Shown: positions 1-5,445, counted from the stretch's first letter. The stretch is 5,445 nucleotides of DNA from a bacterium (GCA_029210545.1 JARGFV010000144.1:1-5445); one strand, 5' to 3'. Made by a program: numbers and translations. The notes: generated by a model not told the origin, from the sequence alone.

Positions 1-115
1 GAAAGGGAAAAGCGTCGTTTTCCCTTTCCTTACAAATCAATGACTTACGGTGTAAGTCATTGATTTGGGCGCCCCGCTCGGGGCGCGTTGATGGACTTTT
101 TGCGAGTCCATCAAC
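1..115. repeat. Cluster of four consecutive perfect stem-loops
   Basis: Four inverted repeats follow one another with almost no spacer. Hairpin 1 pairs 1-11 with 18-28 (11 bp, 6-nt loop) and may continue beyond the window edge. Hairpin 2 pairs 33-48 with 52-67 (16 bp, loop GGT). Hairpin 3 pairs 69-75 with 80-86 (7 bp, all G/C, loop GCTC). Hairpin 4 pairs 87-97 with 105-115 (11 bp plus a possible T-G pair, 7-nt loop). Spacers are 4, 1 and 0 nt, and the arms of different hairpins are unrelated in sequence. The cluster lies downstream of fabH. No hairpin is followed by a T-run on either strand, so these are not classical intrinsic terminators, although they could still stop or stabilise the 3' end of the fabH transcript. 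A chain of mobile palindromic units or a structured RNA are the alternatives. Confidence 0.8.
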
Positions 116-135
116 ATTGGACATTGGACTTTGGA
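115..135 (-). repeat. Heptamer array A (3 units) just past the fabH stop
   Basis: Read on the minus strand, three tandem 7-nt units follow the fabH stop codon after 9 nt: TCCAAAG, TCCAATG, TCCAATG. The last unit shares its final base with the arm of the neighbouring stem-loop (87-115). Two of these words recur exactly in the array at 5211-5252. Confidence 0.75.
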
Positions 136-144
136 CAGTTCTGA

Positions 145-1128
145 TCACCATCGGATAATCGCTCCCCCCCATGTCAAGCCGGCGCCGAACCCGGCCAGGG
201 CGACGATGTCACCCTCCTTGATGAGCCCCTGCCGGTTGGCGTCATCCAGGGCGATGGGGATCGTGCCGCCGGAGGTATTGCCGTACTTCTCCAGGTTTAC
301 GAAGAACTTTTTCCTTGGGATGCCAAGTGCTTTGGCCGCCGAATCGATGATCCTGATATTGGCCTGGTGGGGGATCACCATGTCGATATCCTTCAAGGTC
401 AGCCTTTCGGCCCGCTCGAGTGCTCCTGTAACAGCTTCCGGAAGAGCCCTGACTCCAAATTTGAAGACCTCTCTGCCCATCATGCGCACAGCGAAATCCT
501 TGCTGTGCTGATCACCGAGGGGTGTCAGGTCCGCGACGCCGGGATCGACAGCCAGCCAGGGGGGCGGCGCGGAGCCGTCTGCCTTCAAATAGGTCGAGAT
601 AATGCCCCTCTCCCCGCCTTCGTGCCGTAAAACAGCCGCACCGGCTCCGTCCGCGAACAGGACGCAGGTGTTCCGATCGCTCCAATCCAGTACCCTCGAC
701 AGCGTTTCCCCTCCGATGACCAGGGCCGTTTTGACACCCTGGTCGGGCATCATGCCGTTTGCCATGGCAAGGCCGTACACGAACCCGGAGCAGGCTGCCT
801 CGAGGTCGAAACAGGCGGCGTTCACCGCCCCGATCTTGCTCTGAACGATGCAGGCGGTGGCCGGGATCAGGCGATCCGGGGTGAGGGTCGCCATGATGAC
901 AAGGTCCACCTCTTCGGGGCCGACACCGGCCATTTCGAGGGCGTTTTTGGCCGCCTCAGCCGCAAAGTCAGAGGTGGTCTCGTGTTCTTCCGCGATACGC
1001 CGTTCCCGGATCCCGGTCCGCGAGACGATCCATTCGTCTGTCGTGTCCACAATTTTTGCCAGGTCGTCGTTGGTGACTATCCGGGAAGGCAGTCCCATCC
1101 CGGTGCCGATGATACGGTTACCTTTCAT
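145..1128 (-). CDS. fabH: Beta-ketoacyl-ACP synthase III (KAS III)
   Basis: FabH condenses acetyl-CoA or another short acyl-CoA with malonyl-ACP in the cytoplasm, the first elongation step of type II fatty-acid synthesis. The 327-aa product is full length (E. coli FabH is 317 aa) and has the complete thiolase-fold triad: Cys113 in AACSGF, His254 in PHQAN and Asn284 in YGNTSGG. CoA-contact residues are kept: Trp33, Arg37 and Thr38 in DEWIVSRTGI, and Arg152 in the WSDRNT stretch. The C-terminus has the usual GFGAGLTWGGA ending. About ten extra residues, compared with E. coli, sit between the catalytic Cys and His, near 187-210. The position equivalent to E. coli Phe87, which shapes the acyl-primer pocket, is Ile88. 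The start is fixed by a strong AAGGAG site. No plsX, fabD, fabG or acpP is adjacent, so this may be a second KAS III copy. The family call is secure; primer preference is not known. Confidence 0.97.
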   Translation of the reverse strand: MKGNRIIGTGMGLPSRIVTNDDLAKIVDTTDEWIVSRTGIRERRIAEEHETTSDFAAEAAKNALEMAGVGPEEVDLVIMATLTPDRLIPATACIVQSKIGAVNAACFDLEAACSGFVYGLAMANGMMPDQGVKTALVIGGETLSRVLDWSDRNTCVLFADGAGAAVLRHEGGERGIISTYLKADGSAPPPWLAVDPGVADLTPLGDQHSKDFAVRMMGREVFKFGVRALPEAVTGALERAERLTLKDIDMVIPHQANIRIIDSAAKALGIPRKKFFVNLEKYGNTSGGTIPIALDDANRQGLIKEGDIVALAGFGAGLTWGGAIIRW

Positions 1129-1134
1129 GCCTTA

Positions 1135-1140
1135 CTCCTT
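1135..1140 (-). promoter_or_regulatory. Shine-Dalgarno site of fabH
   Basis: AAGGAG lies 6 nt upstream of the fabH ATG (1126-1128). It is the strongest ribosome-binding site on the minus strand here and supports independent translation of fabH rather than coupling to the methyltransferase gene 111 nt upstream. Confidence 0.8.
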
Positions 1141-1184
1141 ATCTTGCTCGAAACGATTGGTGCATCCGGTTTATGCATCCAGCC

Positions 1185-1236
1185 AGGAGTCTGTGCCCTC
1201 CCTGTTAAAAACAGGGAGGTTCTCCGACAGACTCCT
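1185..1236. repeat. Two-tier stem-loop between methyltransferase and fabH
   Basis: An outer 10-bp perfect stem (1185-1194 with 1227-1236, arm AGGAGTCTGT) encloses an inner 10-bp perfect stem (1197-1206 with 1210-1219, arm CCTCCCTGTT, loop AAA). The internal loop is asymmetric: 2 nt on one side and 7 nt on the other. The structure begins 3 nt after the methyltransferase stop codon and could end or stabilise that transcript. Neither strand carries a T-run after the outer stem, so a standard intrinsic terminator is not supported. A small palindromic mobile unit is equally possible. Confidence 0.7.
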
Positions 1237-1239
1237 AGT

Positions 1240-2037
1240 TTATTGTTTCACAACCGCAGCCGGTTTTCTGGCCGTAACGATCGTCCTCATGTTCATGAAG
1301 CCGAGATCTTCGCTGCCTGTGTGAGAGCAAAAATCGTTGTGGATGACCGCTTCCACAAAACCCGCGTCTACGACAAGCTTTTTCAGCTGGCCGGGACGGT
1401 AGATCCTGATAGCGTAGGACTGGTCACGGACAAGCCCCTTTCGTCGGGAAAAGATGATCTCTCTTGCCTTCACTCTTCCGTCCCCGATCTCCCGCTGACG
1501 GCACACCACCAGGTCGTCATCGACCTCGTGCCATGTGTTGGGGGCCATCTGTTCCAGGACCCTGTCACCGTCGGCCACATCCACCAGCAGGTGCCCTCCG
1601 GGCTGCAGCAGGCGCCAGGCTTCGGCCATGATCCTCCCGTCATCGTCGTCATGGGGCAGATAACCCAGGGAGTTCCCCAGGATCAGCACGTAGTCGAAAC
1701 GATCTCCGGGAAGACCCGTCTCCCTCGCGTCACCCTGGACAAAAACAACGGGCAGGTTCAGGTGCCGTGCAGAGCTTCTCCCGACTTCCACCAGGTGAGG
1801 AGAATAGTCGACGACGGTACACTCTCCGCGGCCCCTGCGGGCCAGCTCAAGACTGTGCCGACCCTGCCCGCCGCACAGGTCGGCTATGTGATGGCCCGAC
1901 TCCACCGGGAGAAGATCCAGTATGATGTCAACTTCCCGCCGGGAAAGCTCCTCGTTGCACACTGTTCGGGCATCCGTCTTCAGATAAATATCATCGAAGA
2001 GGGTTTTCCACCAATCGGGGTGAACTTTGATGGACAT
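1240..2037 (-). CDS. Class I SAM-dependent methyltransferase
   Basis: A predicted cytoplasmic methyltransferase of 265 aa; its substrate cannot be read from sequence. The Rossmann SAM-binding half is clear: motif I at 51-60 (IADLCGGQGR), an acidic residue ending strand 2 (Asp77 in VVDYSP), the QGDARE motif at 101-106, FDYVLILGNSLGY at 114-126 and the post-motif LLQPGGHLLVDV at 143-154. The second half (about 165-255) looks beta-rich, followed by an RIYRPGQLKKLVVDAGF helix segment typical of small-molecule methyltransferases of the Methyltransf_11/25 type. The frame is open up to an ATG at 2145. The start at 2037 is preferred because the extra 36 residues would overlap the upstream coding region by about 100 nt and look like a shadow translation, while the family-like sequence begins right after Met at 2037. 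The 7-nt gap to the ATP-grasp gene suggests an operon and a shared substrate. Confidence 0.9.
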   Translation of the reverse strand: MSIKVHPDWWKTLFDDIYLKTDARTVCNEELSRREVDIILDLLPVESGHHIADLCGGQGRHSLELARRGRGECTVVDYSPHLVEVGRSSARHLNLPVVFVQGDARETGLPGDRFDYVLILGNSLGYLPHDDDDGRIMAEAWRLLQPGGHLLVDVADGDRVLEQMAPNTWHEVDDDLVVCRQREIGDGRVKAREIIFSRRKGLVRDQSYAIRIYRPGQLKKLVVDAGFVEAVIHNDFCSHTGSEDLGFMNMRTIVTARKPAAVVKQ

Positions 2038-2047
2038 GACTGACCTA
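2038..2047 (-). promoter_or_regulatory. Coupled stop and ribosome-binding region for the methyltransferase
   Basis: The TAG stop of the ATP-grasp gene (2045-2047) overlaps the only Shine-Dalgarno-like stretch (TAGGT, about 6 nt before the ATG at 2037). The site is weak, so translation probably relies on ribosomes finishing the upstream gene. This arrangement also supports the start at 2037. Confidence 0.5.
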
Positions 2048-3451
2048 TCCGGCCAGCGGGTGGGCACCGAAGGAAAAAAGCCCATCCGAAGCGAAGACGG
2101 CAGGCCCGCCCTTCCAGGGCTGGCTCCTGGCGATAGCCAGCTCATCTTCCTCGATATCCACGTAATCGTCCAGGGCCCCCTCGTGCCACATCTTTTCCAG
2201 GGTCAGGCAGTCGGCCCACATGGCGTGACAGTACCTCTCCAGAGAAGCCAGGTGCCCTTGAGTGAGGATCCGCGGACGCAGCGCCATCCGGATCGGTCCG
2301 AGAAGGTATGTGAAGCGGTGATCCAGGGAAAGTTTCTCCTGGTGCGCGACGACCTCGGCCAGGTCGCCATAAGGGATTTCCATGATTGCTCCGTTGATAC
2401 GATCCACCGCTTCCCTCACCGGCATCCTTGACCGCAGGATCGCAAGGGGCTGGACCCCGCCTCCGCTGCCCACGTTGGTGGGCACTCCGCCAAACCGGAC
2501 CAGGAACCCGAACAGCCCCTCCGGCCCCATGAGGCACCTGAAATCCGTCTGGTACCGCTCCATGACCGTCCTCAGGCCCTGGTTGTCCACGGCGGGGTTG
2601 TCCTCCGCCCACAGATCCAGGGGGATCTTCTCCTGGACGATGTAGTTTCCCTTTTCGGTGGCCAGGCCGACGGCTTCTTTGGCATCCGGGTTGATGCCAC
2701 CGACACGCACACCCATGCCCGAGTATCCCCGTTCCGGTTTAAGGACGAGCCTGTCCCAGTTGTCGCGGGTCCACCCGACCAGGTCAGGGATTCTCTCGTC
2801 TCCCGGACCAACGGCGGGCCCTTCCCGGAACCTTCTGGTCCAGGGGGTCCTTCTCACCGTCTCCTCCTGGAAGCGGCCGGACATGGGACCGGTGAAAAGT
2901 TCGAACATGCTCTTGACGTTGATCGGTTCGGTCCCTCTCGGGTTCACAACACGCCCCTCGCGGACGGCCTGGAGCACCGGTGACAGGTCGTGCCGGCGAT
3001 GGAGCCGAAGCAGAACATCCGAGTTGAAATCCATGAAGACGACCGATACCGGCTGTCCCCGGTAACAGACCTTGCCGGCAACGGTTTCCAGCTCGTGGGG
3101 AGCCATGAGGGCGCCGGTTATGCCGTCCTCGCCGGAAAGGTGTTTGGCGAGGTTGATATTCTCGGTCACATCCTCGAGAGTCTCTTCCTCGGCCACCACG
3201 GCGATGAGTCCCTTGTTGGAACCCTCCCGCAGACGGTGGATCTTGACCAGCATCTGGACGAACCCGTAAACCGGGTATAACCGGGGATGGTCGAAATCCA
3301 GATCGACACCGGGATCTTTCAGCCGGACCAGCCTGGACCAGACCTCCTTGCCGATGATCTGCGTTATCCTCTGGTAGTCCCAGCCACCGGGGCTGCCCAG
3401 GTTCCATTCAGAGTGATAGCCGAGAAAATCAGCATCAAGATCAAATTCCAT
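2045..3451 (-). CDS. ATP-grasp ligase-like protein, substrate unknown
   Basis: A 468-aa protein that appears to be an ATP-dependent carboxylate-amine ligase-like enzyme of the ATP-grasp fold. Residues 80-186 resemble a pre-ATP-grasp domain: a Rossmann-like GLIAVVAEE strand, then VVFMDFNSDVLLRLH and GRVVNPRGTEPINVKSMFELF. The nucleotide-binding part follows: LVLKPERGYSGMGV at 235-248 (Lys238, Gly-rich loop), YIVQEKI at 270-276 (hinge segment), then a Mg-binding type region with TDFRC (302-306) and a C-terminal RFGGVPTNVGSGGGVQP (319-335), which matches the usual Arg, Asn and glycine-rich end of the ATP-grasp site. The last 100 residues are mostly helical and unassigned. No signal peptide or membrane segment is seen. 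The closest general likeness is to glutathionylspermidine-synthase or circularly permuted ATP-grasp proteins, but I cannot name a subfamily. It probably acts with the adjacent methyltransferase. The start codon lies inside a heptamer array, and its Shine-Dalgarno is poor. Confidence 0.75.
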   Translation of the reverse strand: MEFDLDADFLGYHSEWNLGSPGGWDYQRITQIIGKEVWSRLVRLKDPGVDLDFDHPRLYPVYGFVQMLVKIHRLREGSNKGLIAVVAEEETLEDVTENINLAKHLSGEDGITGALMAPHELETVAGKVCYRGQPVSVVFMDFNSDVLLRLHRRHDLSPVLQAVREGRVVNPRGTEPINVKSMFELFTGPMSGRFQEETVRRTPWTRRFREGPAVGPGDERIPDLVGWTRDNWDRLVLKPERGYSGMGVRVGGINPDAKEAVGLATEKGNYIVQEKIPLDLWAEDNPAVDNQGLRTVMERYQTDFRCLMGPEGLFGFLVRFGGVPTNVGSGGGVQPLAILRSRMPVREAVDRINGAIMEIPYGDLAEVVAHQEKLSLDHRFTYLLGPIRMALRPRILTQGHLASLERYCHAMWADCLTLEKMWHEGALDDYVDIEEDELAIARSQPWKGGPAVFASDGLFSFGAHPLAG

Positions 3452-3470
3452 ATTCCAAATTCCATATTCC
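3443..3470 (+). repeat. Heptamer array B (4 units) spanning the ATP-grasp start codon
   Basis: On the plus strand, AAATTCC and ATATTCC alternate twice without gaps, making a 14-nt unit repeated exactly. Rotated, the units read TCCATAT and TCCAAAT, similar to the TCCAAAG and TCCAATG words of the other arrays. The ATG of the ATP-grasp gene (3449-3451) falls where the first two units meet, and the same ATATGGAA string recurs 14 nt upstream, out of frame. Confidence 0.8.
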
Positions 3471-3471
3471 A

Positions 3472-3494
3472 GAAAGAATGATCTGAATTCTTTC
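3472..3494. repeat. 8-bp stem-loop in the ATP-grasp leader
   Basis: GAAAGAAT (3472-3479) pairs with ATTCTTTC (3487-3494) across a 7-nt loop. It would lie in the 5' untranslated leader between the candidate promoter and the start codon of the ATP-grasp gene. The stem is A/T-rich, so a role is uncertain. Confidence 0.4.
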
Positions 3495-3510
3495 AGCTTC
3501 AGATTGATAA

Positions 3511-3539
3511 ATTATGTGATCGGTAATTGGAAAAGTCAC
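3511..3539 (-). promoter_or_regulatory. Candidate sigma-70 promoter for the ATP-grasp/methyltransferase operon
   Basis: On the minus strand, GTGACT (3534-3539) matches the -35 consensus TTGACA at 4 of 6 positions and CATAAT (3511-3516) matches the -10 consensus at 5 of 6. The spacer is the ideal 17 nt. Transcription would start near 3504, giving a leader of about 50 nt. The region is markedly A/T-richer than the coding DNA around it, as expected for a promoter. Confidence 0.45.
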
Positions 3540-3563
3540 GAATAATGAATCACCGTTTTTCTA

Positions 3564-3591
3564 CTCTGCACTCTGCACATTGCACTCTGCA
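3564..3591 (-). repeat. Heptamer array C (4 units) touching the DUF885 stop
   Basis: Read on the minus strand the units are TGCAGAG, TGCAGAG, TGCAATG and TGCAGAG in 3'-to-5' order, beginning 1 nt after the TGA stop of the DUF885 gene. It has the same 7-nt period and the same mix of a main unit with one AATG variant as arrays A and D, but with TG in place of TC at the unit start. Confidence 0.8.
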
Positions 3592-3592
3592 C

Positions 3593-5155
3593 TCACGTGC
3601 TGAGTTTTTGCTTCAGCACGTGCTCCAGGTCCTGGAACAACAGTTCCCCCTCGGATAAAACCGCATTTATGAAATTCGGGACCCCTTCCCCGCCTGTCGA
3701 TCGGAAAAGGCTTTGAAACCCGCGTCGGCCGATAGAATAGCACATCTGGTAAGCGGGCTGTAAGGCGTATTTGCGCACCGTTTCGATGGCCCGGACCCTG
3801 GTCAACCCGGCCTGGGACAGGTGAACGGCTGCCGTTTCAAGATCGACACGGCCGGAATGCAGGAGAAGGTCCGTGCGCCCTCGAACAGCATGCCGGTACC
3901 GCCTCCAGGTGACAAGGAACCGATCGTACGCCCTGTCGAAGGCTCCGGATTGGAGCATGAGATCCTCCCCGAAGCAGGCCCACCCCTCGTAAAAAAGCGG
4001 ATATTCCAGGGGGCGCCGTACCGGATCGGGATGGTTCCAGCGGCACGTGTCCAGGAGATGGTGTCCCGGATAGGTCTCATGGGCGACTGTCATCCTGTAC
4101 GACGGGTGGACCGAAAGCGCACTTCGGCCAAGGGTTCCGCCGGCGAATATATAGAACGTTCCACCGCCGGAAGGGTTGCCGGGACGGGCATTGTAGGAAT
4201 CCGCTGCCCTTATGGCGGCAAGGGAGTGCGGCAGGCGCCGGATATCAACATCGGGCGCCCTCGAGGCTTCCCGTATCCCCAGGTCCGCACAATGTTCCTT
4301 GAGATGCGCCGTTTCCAGGAACAGGAGCCGGATCGGTCCGCCTTCAGGCAGAGGATCGGGTTTCAGGGCGCCGAAAAGTTCGTTAAAATCCTCCGAACCG
4401 GCCAGGTTGCGGCTCTCCCTGGCAAGGAGAGATCCCGTCTCGCGTTCCTCGTCTTCCAGTTCAGCCAGCGCCTCGGCCACAGTGAATCCGCTGCCGGAGT
4501 GATGGCACACGATCCGTTCCAGCTGGTCCGGGTCAAGCTGGAACCTGTCTGTCGTGGGTATTCGGGCCAGTTTTTTCGAAAAAAGATCCACCGATTCCGC
4601 GGCCTGGCTCATCGGCCGGACATCTCCCAGGGTGGCGATCCATTTCCGAATATCCTCCGCCATCTCCAGGCCAAGATCCCTGAACAGGACAGGAACCTTG
4701 TCAAGGCTCTCAAATGCTCCTTGAAGAAAGCCGGGGAGTGCCGACAGACGAGCCCCCAAAGCATGCTCATCCTGGCTCTGGAGAGCCTGCAAAAGCCCTG
4801 CTGAAGCAACTGTAAGGATGAATGTCGGCTTCGAGCTGAACAGTTTCATGTCCTCAAGCTGCTCCATGAGGACATCCACATGCCGGCTCAGGAGGCGCCT
4901 TGTTCGCCTGTCCCCGTCATCTTCCCACCCGCTGCCCTGGAGGCCCTCCAGGTCGAGTCTGAACTTCCTCAGCTCGGACAACGCGTCCCGGACACCCTCC
5001 GGAGACAGGTCATCCCATGCGGTCCAATCCGTCTCAGCGCTCAACGCCTGGGGAAAATAGTAGAATTCATCACTGAAACAGCAGACGGGAAAACGTCGGG
5101 CCAGGCAGTTATACAGGTCAGAGGCAATGACCTGTATCGAACGGTTATTTTCCAT
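3593..5155 (-). CDS. DUF885 family putative metal-dependent hydrolase
   Basis: A 520-aa protein with the hallmarks of the DUF885 family, which resembles zinc carboxypeptidases and M3-like metallopeptidases; a peptidase role is family-level inference. The key motif HETYPGHH at 359-366 gives a HExxxGHH metal site (His359, Glu360, His365/366). YEGWACFGED at 389-398 supplies the conserved EGWA glutamate (Glu390), a likely third ligand. A glycine-rich GGGTFYIFAGG segment at 330-340 and the C-terminal RRGFQSLF helix region also fit. The N-terminal half (about 1-270) is largely helical. There is no signal peptide, lipobox or membrane segment, unlike many exported DUF885 proteins, so a cytoplasmic location is likely. 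Start at 5155: no other ATG, GTG or TTG lies in the first 30 codons, yet no real Shine-Dalgarno precedes it (only GGG next to the ATG). The gene has no close partner and looks monocistronic. Confidence 0.88.
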   Translation of the reverse strand: MENNRSIQVIASDLYNCLARRFPVCCFSDEFYYFPQALSAETDWTAWDDLSPEGVRDALSELRKFRLDLEGLQGSGWEDDGDRRTRRLLSRHVDVLMEQLEDMKLFSSKPTFILTVASAGLLQALQSQDEHALGARLSALPGFLQGAFESLDKVPVLFRDLGLEMAEDIRKWIATLGDVRPMSQAAESVDLFSKKLARIPTTDRFQLDPDQLERIVCHHSGSGFTVAEALAELEDEERETGSLLARESRNLAGSEDFNELFGALKPDPLPEGGPIRLLFLETAHLKEHCADLGIREASRAPDVDIRRLPHSLAAIRAADSYNARPGNPSGGGTFYIFAGGTLGRSALSVHPSYRMTVAHETYPGHHLLDTCRWNHPDPVRRPLEYPLFYEGWACFGEDLMLQSGAFDRAYDRFLVTWRRYRHAVRGRTDLLLHSGRVDLETAAVHLSQAGLTRVRAIETVRKYALQPAYQMCYSIGRRGFQSLFRSTGGEGVPNFINAVLSEGELLFQDLEHVLKQKLST

Positions 5156-5185
5156 CCCGTACTTTAAAAGGAAAGGGGGAGATAG

Positions 5186-5252
5186 TCCAGAGTCCAGAGG
5201 GAAAAATCAGTCCAAAGTCCAATGTCCAAAGACCAAAGACCAAAGGCTAAAG
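5186..5252 (+). repeat. Heptamer array D (2 + 6 units) upstream of the DUF885 gene
   Basis: On the plus strand, two TCCAGAG units (5186-5199) are followed by an 11-nt interruption and then six contiguous units at 5211-5252: TCCAAAG, TCCAATG, TCCAAAG, ACCAAAG, ACCAAAG and GCTAAAG. The units decay towards the right, where the array ends in the palindrome TAAAGCTTTA (5248-5257). The array lies 31 nt upstream of the DUF885 start, so it would fall in that gene's promoter or leader. The rest of this intergenic stretch (5253 to about 5310) shows nothing further that I can assign. Confidence 0.8.
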
Positions 5253-5351
5253 CTTTAACGCAGAGGGCCGCCCTTCTACGCGCTAATGCCCCTCGAATTC
5301 AAATTACAGCATTTTGACAAGGGTTTAAGAAAGCCGGGCTCAAAGTTGAAG

Positions 5352-5381
5352 TGCAACACTTAGAGGAGTTAAAGTGTTGCA
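5352..5381 (+). promoter_or_regulatory. Stem-loop carrying the transposase Shine-Dalgarno in its loop
   Basis: A 10-bp perfect stem (5352-5361 with 5372-5381) has a 10-nt loop containing GAGGAG (5363-5368), and ends on the base before the transposase ATG. In mRNA this would force the ribosome-binding site into a loop and hold the start region in a stem, which suggests low or regulated translation. The same palindrome may also serve as transposase-binding sequence at the element's end. Confidence 0.6.
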
Positions 5382-5445
5382 ATGGAAAAGACATACGAGC
5401 ATTTGGATTGCACGGAACGTGCGATGATTCAATTGGGACTGGAGC
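5382..5445 (+). CDS. IS30-family transposase, N-terminal fragment (continues past window)
   Basis: Only 21 codons are in the window. The start MEKTYEHLDCTERAMIQLGL has the pattern of the N-terminal helix-turn-helix of IS30 transposases, where a short lead is followed by HL, a two- or three-residue gap, ER, then an I..L(L).G helix. That domain binds the element's terminal repeats; the DDE catalytic core would lie downstream, outside the window. The Shine-Dalgarno GAGGAG is 13 nt upstream, longer than ideal, and lies in a hairpin loop. The gene points away from the DUF885 gene. With so little protein visible, another IS family with a similar HTH start cannot be excluded, and whether the copy is intact is unknown. 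Confidence 0.6.
   Translation, partial: MEKTYEHLDCTERAMIQLGLE

Follow-up and report, generated by a model that had tools for sequence, protein, structure and literature searches.

The four short tandem arrays in the window, a whole contig of 5.4 kb (C144) from a 2.72-Mb metagenome-assembled genome of 241 contigs (G000), belong to a population of heptanucleotide repeats that is real, dense and genome-wide, and of a known but under-explained kind. Their shared feature is the 7-nt step and not the repeated word. According to our analysis they are best explained, with a probability of roughly 0.6, as simple-sequence repeats that arise by slippage-like local duplication with a 7-nt step and are kept out of genes.

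Heptamer arrays in the window

The gene calls are based on codon usage and were made for the present analysis; they are not a published annotation. The window contains four genes, all on the minus strand. Genes (as context) and arrays are, in order:

113..137, minus strand: heptamer array of 3.4 units, reading TCCAAAG TCCAATG TCCAATG on the minus strand, immediately downstream of the stop codon of fabH (145); the genome-wide pattern match covers 115-135
145..1128, minus strand: FabH, beta-ketoacyl-ACP synthase III (NF006829, TIGR00747)
1240..2040, minus strand: SAM-dependent methyltransferase
2045..3451, minus strand: conserved protein of 468 aa, without a Pfam or NCBIfam match
3442..3473, plus strand: heptamer array of about 4 units, TCCATAT and TCCAAAT alternating, which includes the start codon (3451) of the minus-strand 468-aa gene
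3563..3594, minus strand: heptamer array of 4.6 units, TGCAGAG/TGCAATG, extending into the DUF885 gene stop codon (3593)
3593..5155, minus strand: DUF885 protein
5184..5199, plus strand: AGTCCAG, 2.3 units
5208..5252, plus strand: heptamer array TCCAAAG TCCAATG TCCAAAG ACCAAAG ACCAAAG GCTAAAG, upstream of the DUF885 gene

The 468-aa protein has an orthologue, 70-79% identical, in all 11 other genomes of the family. The initial annotation had described four arrays with an exact 7-nt period and variants in the same register, and this is confirmed for all four. When the window spacers were replaced by local Markov shuffles (2000 trials), 1990 trials gave no array and 10 gave a single one, compared with the four observed. 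The other periods from 4 to 13 and period 15 gave no array in the window, and period 14 only recovered the heptamer arrays again. An Rfam search of the window for a known RNA family returned no match.

Abundance and the TCCA word

A genome scan for at least three units of the pattern WSCADWK, proposed along with the initial annotation, found 58 matches in G000 versus 6 for the reversed pattern. Seven of the 58 are inside the window; the arrays are commoner than the control and present elsewhere in the genome. For TCCANNN repeated three times the numbers are 130 and 16. Assembly artefacts are ruled out as a source, since G001, G002 and G008, each a single contig, contain arrays too. Roughly one quarter to one third of the sampled spacers carry arrays in two genomes of the family, and fewer do in G002.

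TCCA-type matches are present in all 12 family genomes, but the TCCA word shows no excess in G002 (9 matches versus 14 for the control). In a sample of 389 genomes, 40 genomes spread over several families contain a four-unit TCCA array; outside the family of the window the reversed control reaches about the same frequency, with totals summed by hand. TCCA therefore belongs to the vocabulary of this and a few other families, and a single TCCA core as a general feature is ruled out. The TCCA/TGCA core noticed at first is real within the window, where it represents just part of the array vocabulary of the genome. The idea of one word family sharing a core does not survive the wider comparison, in which each sampled genome has between 19 and 37 word classes.

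A 7-nt step with many words

For the statistics, about 390 kb were sampled from each of G000, G001 and G002. The G000 stretches were picked from contigs with matches and are biased upward, while those from G001 and G002 are evenly spaced. A word-blind scan additionally took in the unrelated genomes G035 and G040, and 390 kb of loci, most of which come from other lineages. In all samples period 7 exceeds every other period, and in the family genomes period 8 comes second. The arrays fall into 37 word classes in G000, 25 in G001 and 19 in G002, with words as different as TCCAAAG, GTTCACG, AATCACG, CTGACTA, GGGGAAA, CCTCCTC, ATCTCAA and GTGCAGA.

The preference is already seen for exact tandem duplications. 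In the spacers, 7-nt duplications exceed the shuffled sequences 16-fold in G000 (99 versus 6.3), 20-fold in G001 (148 versus 7.3) and 7-fold in G002 (45 versus 6). The 8-nt duplications are several-fold enriched (11 versus 1.3, 28 versus 1.7 and 13 versus 2, respectively), the 6-nt duplications are near chance (23 versus 18, 33 versus 22 and 35 versus 30), and the 5-nt ones are at chance. In coding DNA the 7-nt duplications are near chance as well (39 versus 21.5 and 31 versus 27), and it is the in-frame lengths of 6 and 9 nt that are enriched. Since seven cannot be divided by three, 7-nt duplications would be eliminated from reading frames and build up in the spacers. Of the initial interpretation, one period acting at many loci, the non-coding placement (see below) and a single underlying 7-nt process are supported.

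Placement relative to genes

Non-coding DNA makes up about 16-18% of these genomes, and it contains 51 of 64 arrays in G000, 60 of 64 in G001 and 17 of 21 in G002. The arrays had been said to avoid gene interiors; they are indeed mostly non-coding in all three genomes, but two of the window arrays touch genes, one at the start codon at 3451 and the other at the stop codon at 3593. It had also been suggested that the arrays press against gene ends. This is true for G000, where 28.7% of the arrays are located at most 15 nt from a gene 3' end compared with 15% for random placement (p<0.001) and the proximity to 5' ends has p=0.013, but in G001 gene-end proximity is not significant. The proximity in G000 could mean selection.

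For all four gene orientations, the use of tandem, divergent and convergent spacers roughly follows spacer length. No preference for promoters or terminators is seen across these classes, and a promoter or terminator element is thereby ruled out. A replication-orienting (KOPS-like) motif was also rejected: TCCA arrays occur on both strands in mixed orientation all along the G001 chromosome, where the sampled GC skew is too noisy to place the origin or terminus. A link with a multi-hairpin element was considered and dropped, as only 3 of 36 matches to this element have an array within 60 nt.

Signs of local duplication and dispersal

The number of arrays is approximately halved for each added unit (73, 37, 17, 5 and 2 in G000; 91, 46, 24 and 3 in G001), i.e. 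the distribution is geometric, with no peak at four units. An early coarse count had hinted at a four-unit preference, which was gone in a stricter count. Adjacent units are identical in 141 cases compared with 106.6 in shuffled order (z 5.7), and neighbouring units differ less than units two apart. Local duplication of one unit at a time is expected to produce both the geometric unit numbers and the similarity of neighbours.

In G001 arrays are also moved as a whole. The flanks recur for 53 of 64 arrays, the exact four-unit array TCCAAAATCCAAAGTCCAAAATCCA, with its variants in fixed order, is present in about 20 copies, and the block that surrounds CTGGCCTCTGGACTCTGGACTC is repeated together with its flanks. 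Arrays in this genome are thus dispersed en bloc within longer dispersed repeats. It is therefore conceivable that copying is the main way of spreading, with the arrays being parts of dispersed intergenic repeats, which are probably mobile or recombine and would be the source of the favourite words. The excess of arrays with the same word in G000, see below, agrees with this. However, only 22 of 64 arrays in G000 have recurring flanks (E<1e-4), the changes of word and unit number at fixed orthologous sites require local duplication too, and copying alone does not explain the 7-nt step. As the main process we consider it unlikely.

Word re-use and composition

The choice of words is not random. 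Pairs of arrays with the same word, in different spacers with unrelated flanks, number 78 in G000 versus 6.9 expected (maximum 15 of 300), 116 versus 11 in G001 and 16 versus 1.7 in G002, about a ten-fold excess overall. G000 and G001 have six word classes in common, where 0.8 are expected. CpG is avoided by the words of every set; self-complementarity is avoided as well in most sets, but not in G002. Plain slippage predicts neither the word re-use nor these avoidances, nor the preference for 7 nt over 5 and 6. This leaves two options: copying between spacers happens more often than the flanks show, or certain sequences are preferred by the duplicating process. There is a slight chance that the family has a dedicated process that uses a 7-nt measure and prefers a heptamer vocabulary specific to each genome, writing or copying words into unrelated spacers. 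If so, its signature would be the same-word excess at unrelated sites combined with the sharp length spectrum.

Turnover at orthologous spacers

We compared the spacer that separates the DUF885 and 468-aa genes across most of the family; its words differ from genus to genus. G000 has GTGCAGA and TGGAATA arrays, while in G011 the same stop codon is followed by a shorter, homologous GTGCAGA run, and TCCAATG, AATCACC and TTTGAAA occur as well. G003 and G008, which belong to the genus of G011, have AATCAC arrays whose units differ. In G005 the word is GTTGTTA, in G010 AATCACT and CTTTCAA are found, and G001 has two TCCAGCG units. The spacer of G002 has no array, nor is there one in G004 and G009, whose two genes abut. 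Where the 468-aa gene starts, about 1.5 units are seen in G003 versus 4 in G000, and about four different units (TTTGAAA/TTTGGAG) in G011.

G004 and G009, two species of one genus, are 83.5% identical over 63 kb and have nine and two arrays, respectively. Corresponding spacers carry GTTCAAT versus GTCCAAT, and CTCTGGA versus AACCTCA. Among 96 gaps between the two only one is a 7-nt indel, with no excess seen in a pair whose spacers barely align. Across the spacers compared, the words turn over fast at positions that stay array-prone.

This turnover is relevant for the suggestion in the initial annotation that the arrays form a family of protein-binding sites. The arrays would then be sites for a DNA- or RNA-binding regulator, comparable to the omega/ParB protein of pSM19035 on WATCACW heptads, a precedent for contiguous 7-bp sites in which full activity needs at least four (PMC9499535). 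AATCACT/AATCACA arrays in some family genomes, the non-random re-use of words and the gene-end enrichment in G000 are in its favour. However, each genome has dozens of words, the words change at orthologous spacers even between two species of one genus, unit numbers do not peak at four, and the arrays have no preference for an orientation or for promoters and terminators. A search of the 12 genomes for Omega_Repress (PF07764) gave no match, although the control genomes gave none either, leaving it without a positive control. We find binding sites a quite improbable explanation, and the suggestion is not supported.

A repeat-copying enzyme had been suggested as well. A dedicated writer of heptamers, templated or enzymatic, could work like telomerase or by break-repair fill-in with a 7-nt stagger, and would suit the very sharp length preference and the genome-specific favourite words. 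Ku is absent in all 12 family genomes and RVT_1 in ten of them, including G000, which makes end-joining fill-in and templating by a reverse transcriptase unlikely. In their Ku-dependent and RVT_1-dependent forms both were rejected, the first for all 12 genomes and the second for G000. No candidate enzyme was identified, the geometric unit numbers and neighbour similarity suit local copying, and we consider a writer very unlikely. Structure-forming repeats (G-quadruplexes), as proposed for the GGGNATC heptamers of Xanthomonas and Nostoc, match a few G-rich words (AAAGGGG, AGGAGGG), but as a general explanation they are contradicted by the word list and largely refuted, since most words have no run of three G (TCCAAAG, AATCACG, GTTCACA) and four units are not preferred.

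Proposed origin of the arrays

Slippage-like duplication thus remains the preferred reading. A local process preferring a 7-nt step, with 8 nt as a poor second, would repeatedly double short stretches of DNA, and we infer that the duplicating step is replication slippage. Single substitutions would yield in-register variants that are themselves copied later. Duplications would be removed from reading frames and pile up in the spacers, right up to the stop and start codons, and arrays would arise, change their words and disappear within a short time. Longer dispersed repeats would also carry arrays to new places in some relatives. No sequence-specific function needs to be assumed, and most arrays are probably neutral.

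The family offers a measurable case for the question why 7 nt, with its dense arrays, the contrasting genome G002 and congeneric pairs with different words. It also advises caution against taking heptamer arrays of this kind for regulatory sites.

Comparison with known heptamer systems

An excess of bacterial heptamers was reported as early as 2007, and its cause has only been guessed at. According to Mrazek et al. 2007, as cited in later papers (PMC4679880, PMC4692102), heptamers are the most abundant unit class of long simple sequence repeats in most genomes studied, and the excess was tied to slippage and tentatively to a proposed 7-nt contact of DNA polymerase. The arrays described here resemble those repeats in their head-to-tail 7-nt units beyond chance and in the excess over neighbouring lengths, and are here mostly non-coding. 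Unit numbers differ at homologous sites and lengths are geometric; 7-nt indels are as rare as given above in the diverged pair G004/G009. Relative to that survey as relayed in the two papers, we add that the excess can be resolved down to two-unit duplications, with none at 5 nt and a level close to chance at 6 nt, and that arrays can be traced through orthologous spacers within a single bacterial family.

The GGGNATC and GGGGA(C/T)T repeats of Xanthomonas and Nostoc are G-rich and prefer four units (PMC4692102). Like our arrays they are genome-wide, intergenic, of 7-nt period and near gene ends, and in Xanthomonas the sites are conserved between relatives with variable lengths and words. In contrast, the arrays here have many words, mostly not G-rich and in most classes without a G-run of at least three per unit, and geometric unit numbers. 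The TAACTGA repeats of Beggiatoaceae and Cyanobacteria are likewise short heptamer arrays, found between genes at many places in a genome, but consist of one word mostly directly upstream of start codons (PMC4679880), whereas the arrays here use dozens of words in all gene contexts with no start-codon preference; TAACTGA is missing among the listed word classes of the sampled genomes. The explanations given for these systems, G-quadruplexes and start codons, do not transfer to our arrays.

Geobacter metallireducens contains tandem heptamers at many sites too, i.e. 49 sites of a putative regulatory element (PMC2700814), which differs in its word (GGACCGG), its fixed four units and its location partly within genes. 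The parS of pSM19035, a plasmid centromere of WATCACW heptads bound by the RHH ParB protein omega (PMC9499535), demonstrates that heptad arrays can be binding sites. It shares the contiguous 7-bp repeats, and the AATCACT/AATCACA words of some family genomes fit its consensus, but the words here are far more diverse and those of the window are not WATCACW; nothing supports heptad binding sites as a general explanation for our arrays. The analogy drawn at first with the cyanobacterial STRR repeats is right in kind.

A dispersed multi-hairpin element

The window opens with four near-perfect hairpins in a row, their stems unrelated to one another.

1-114: hairpin stems GGGAAAA/TTTTCCC, AAATCAATGACTTAC/GTAAGTCATTGATTT, GCGCCCCG/CGGGGCGC and TGATGGACT/AGTCCATCA

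These hairpins belong to a multi-hairpin element, roughly 130-150 nt long, that is dispersed in the genome. A pattern scan found 36 matches to it in about 400 kb of the same assembly and none in the samples of two other genomes of the family, G001 and G002. The element looks mobile, because related copies in G004 face near-clean empty sites in G009, a genome of the same genus (148 vs 2 nt and 136 vs 0 nt). Y1_Tnp transposases are present in eight of the 12 family genomes, and such an enzyme is a possible mobiliser of the element.

Heptamer arrays in other genomes

In G001 the spacers of five sampled stretches (L108, L110, L111, L116, L119) are mosaics built of dispersed repeats, in which heptamer arrays are fused with blocks, for example GATTGCTTCACTCAGGTACCGGTTCGCAATGACAACCGC and CCTCTGGACCCTGGCCTCTGGACTCTGGACTCATTTCTCCCCGCGTCC. 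At L108:9025-9120 three different words, ATTAGAG, TCCAAAA and CAGTTCAC, follow each other in a single, apparently unbroken 7-nt register of about 90 nt. Outside the family, heptamer arrays are very numerous in four unrelated genomes (G071, G194, G184, G256), with partly other words, and G071 has 133 matches to the reversed pattern used as control. The density of heptamer arrays therefore differs strongly among lineages.

A conserved protein and the contig ends

2045-3451: gene of a 468-aa protein, next to methyltransferase and DUF885 genes
5330-5445: inverted repeat TGCAACACTTAGAGGAGTTAAAGTGTTGCA, then an open frame beginning MEKTYEHLDCTERAMIQLGLE at 5382

The 468-aa protein, for which Pfam and NCBIfam searches gave no match, is found at 70-79% identity in all 11 other family genomes. 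Both contig ends probably break within repeats. The open frame at 5382 is too short for a family match; we take it to resemble the beginning of an IS30-family transposase.
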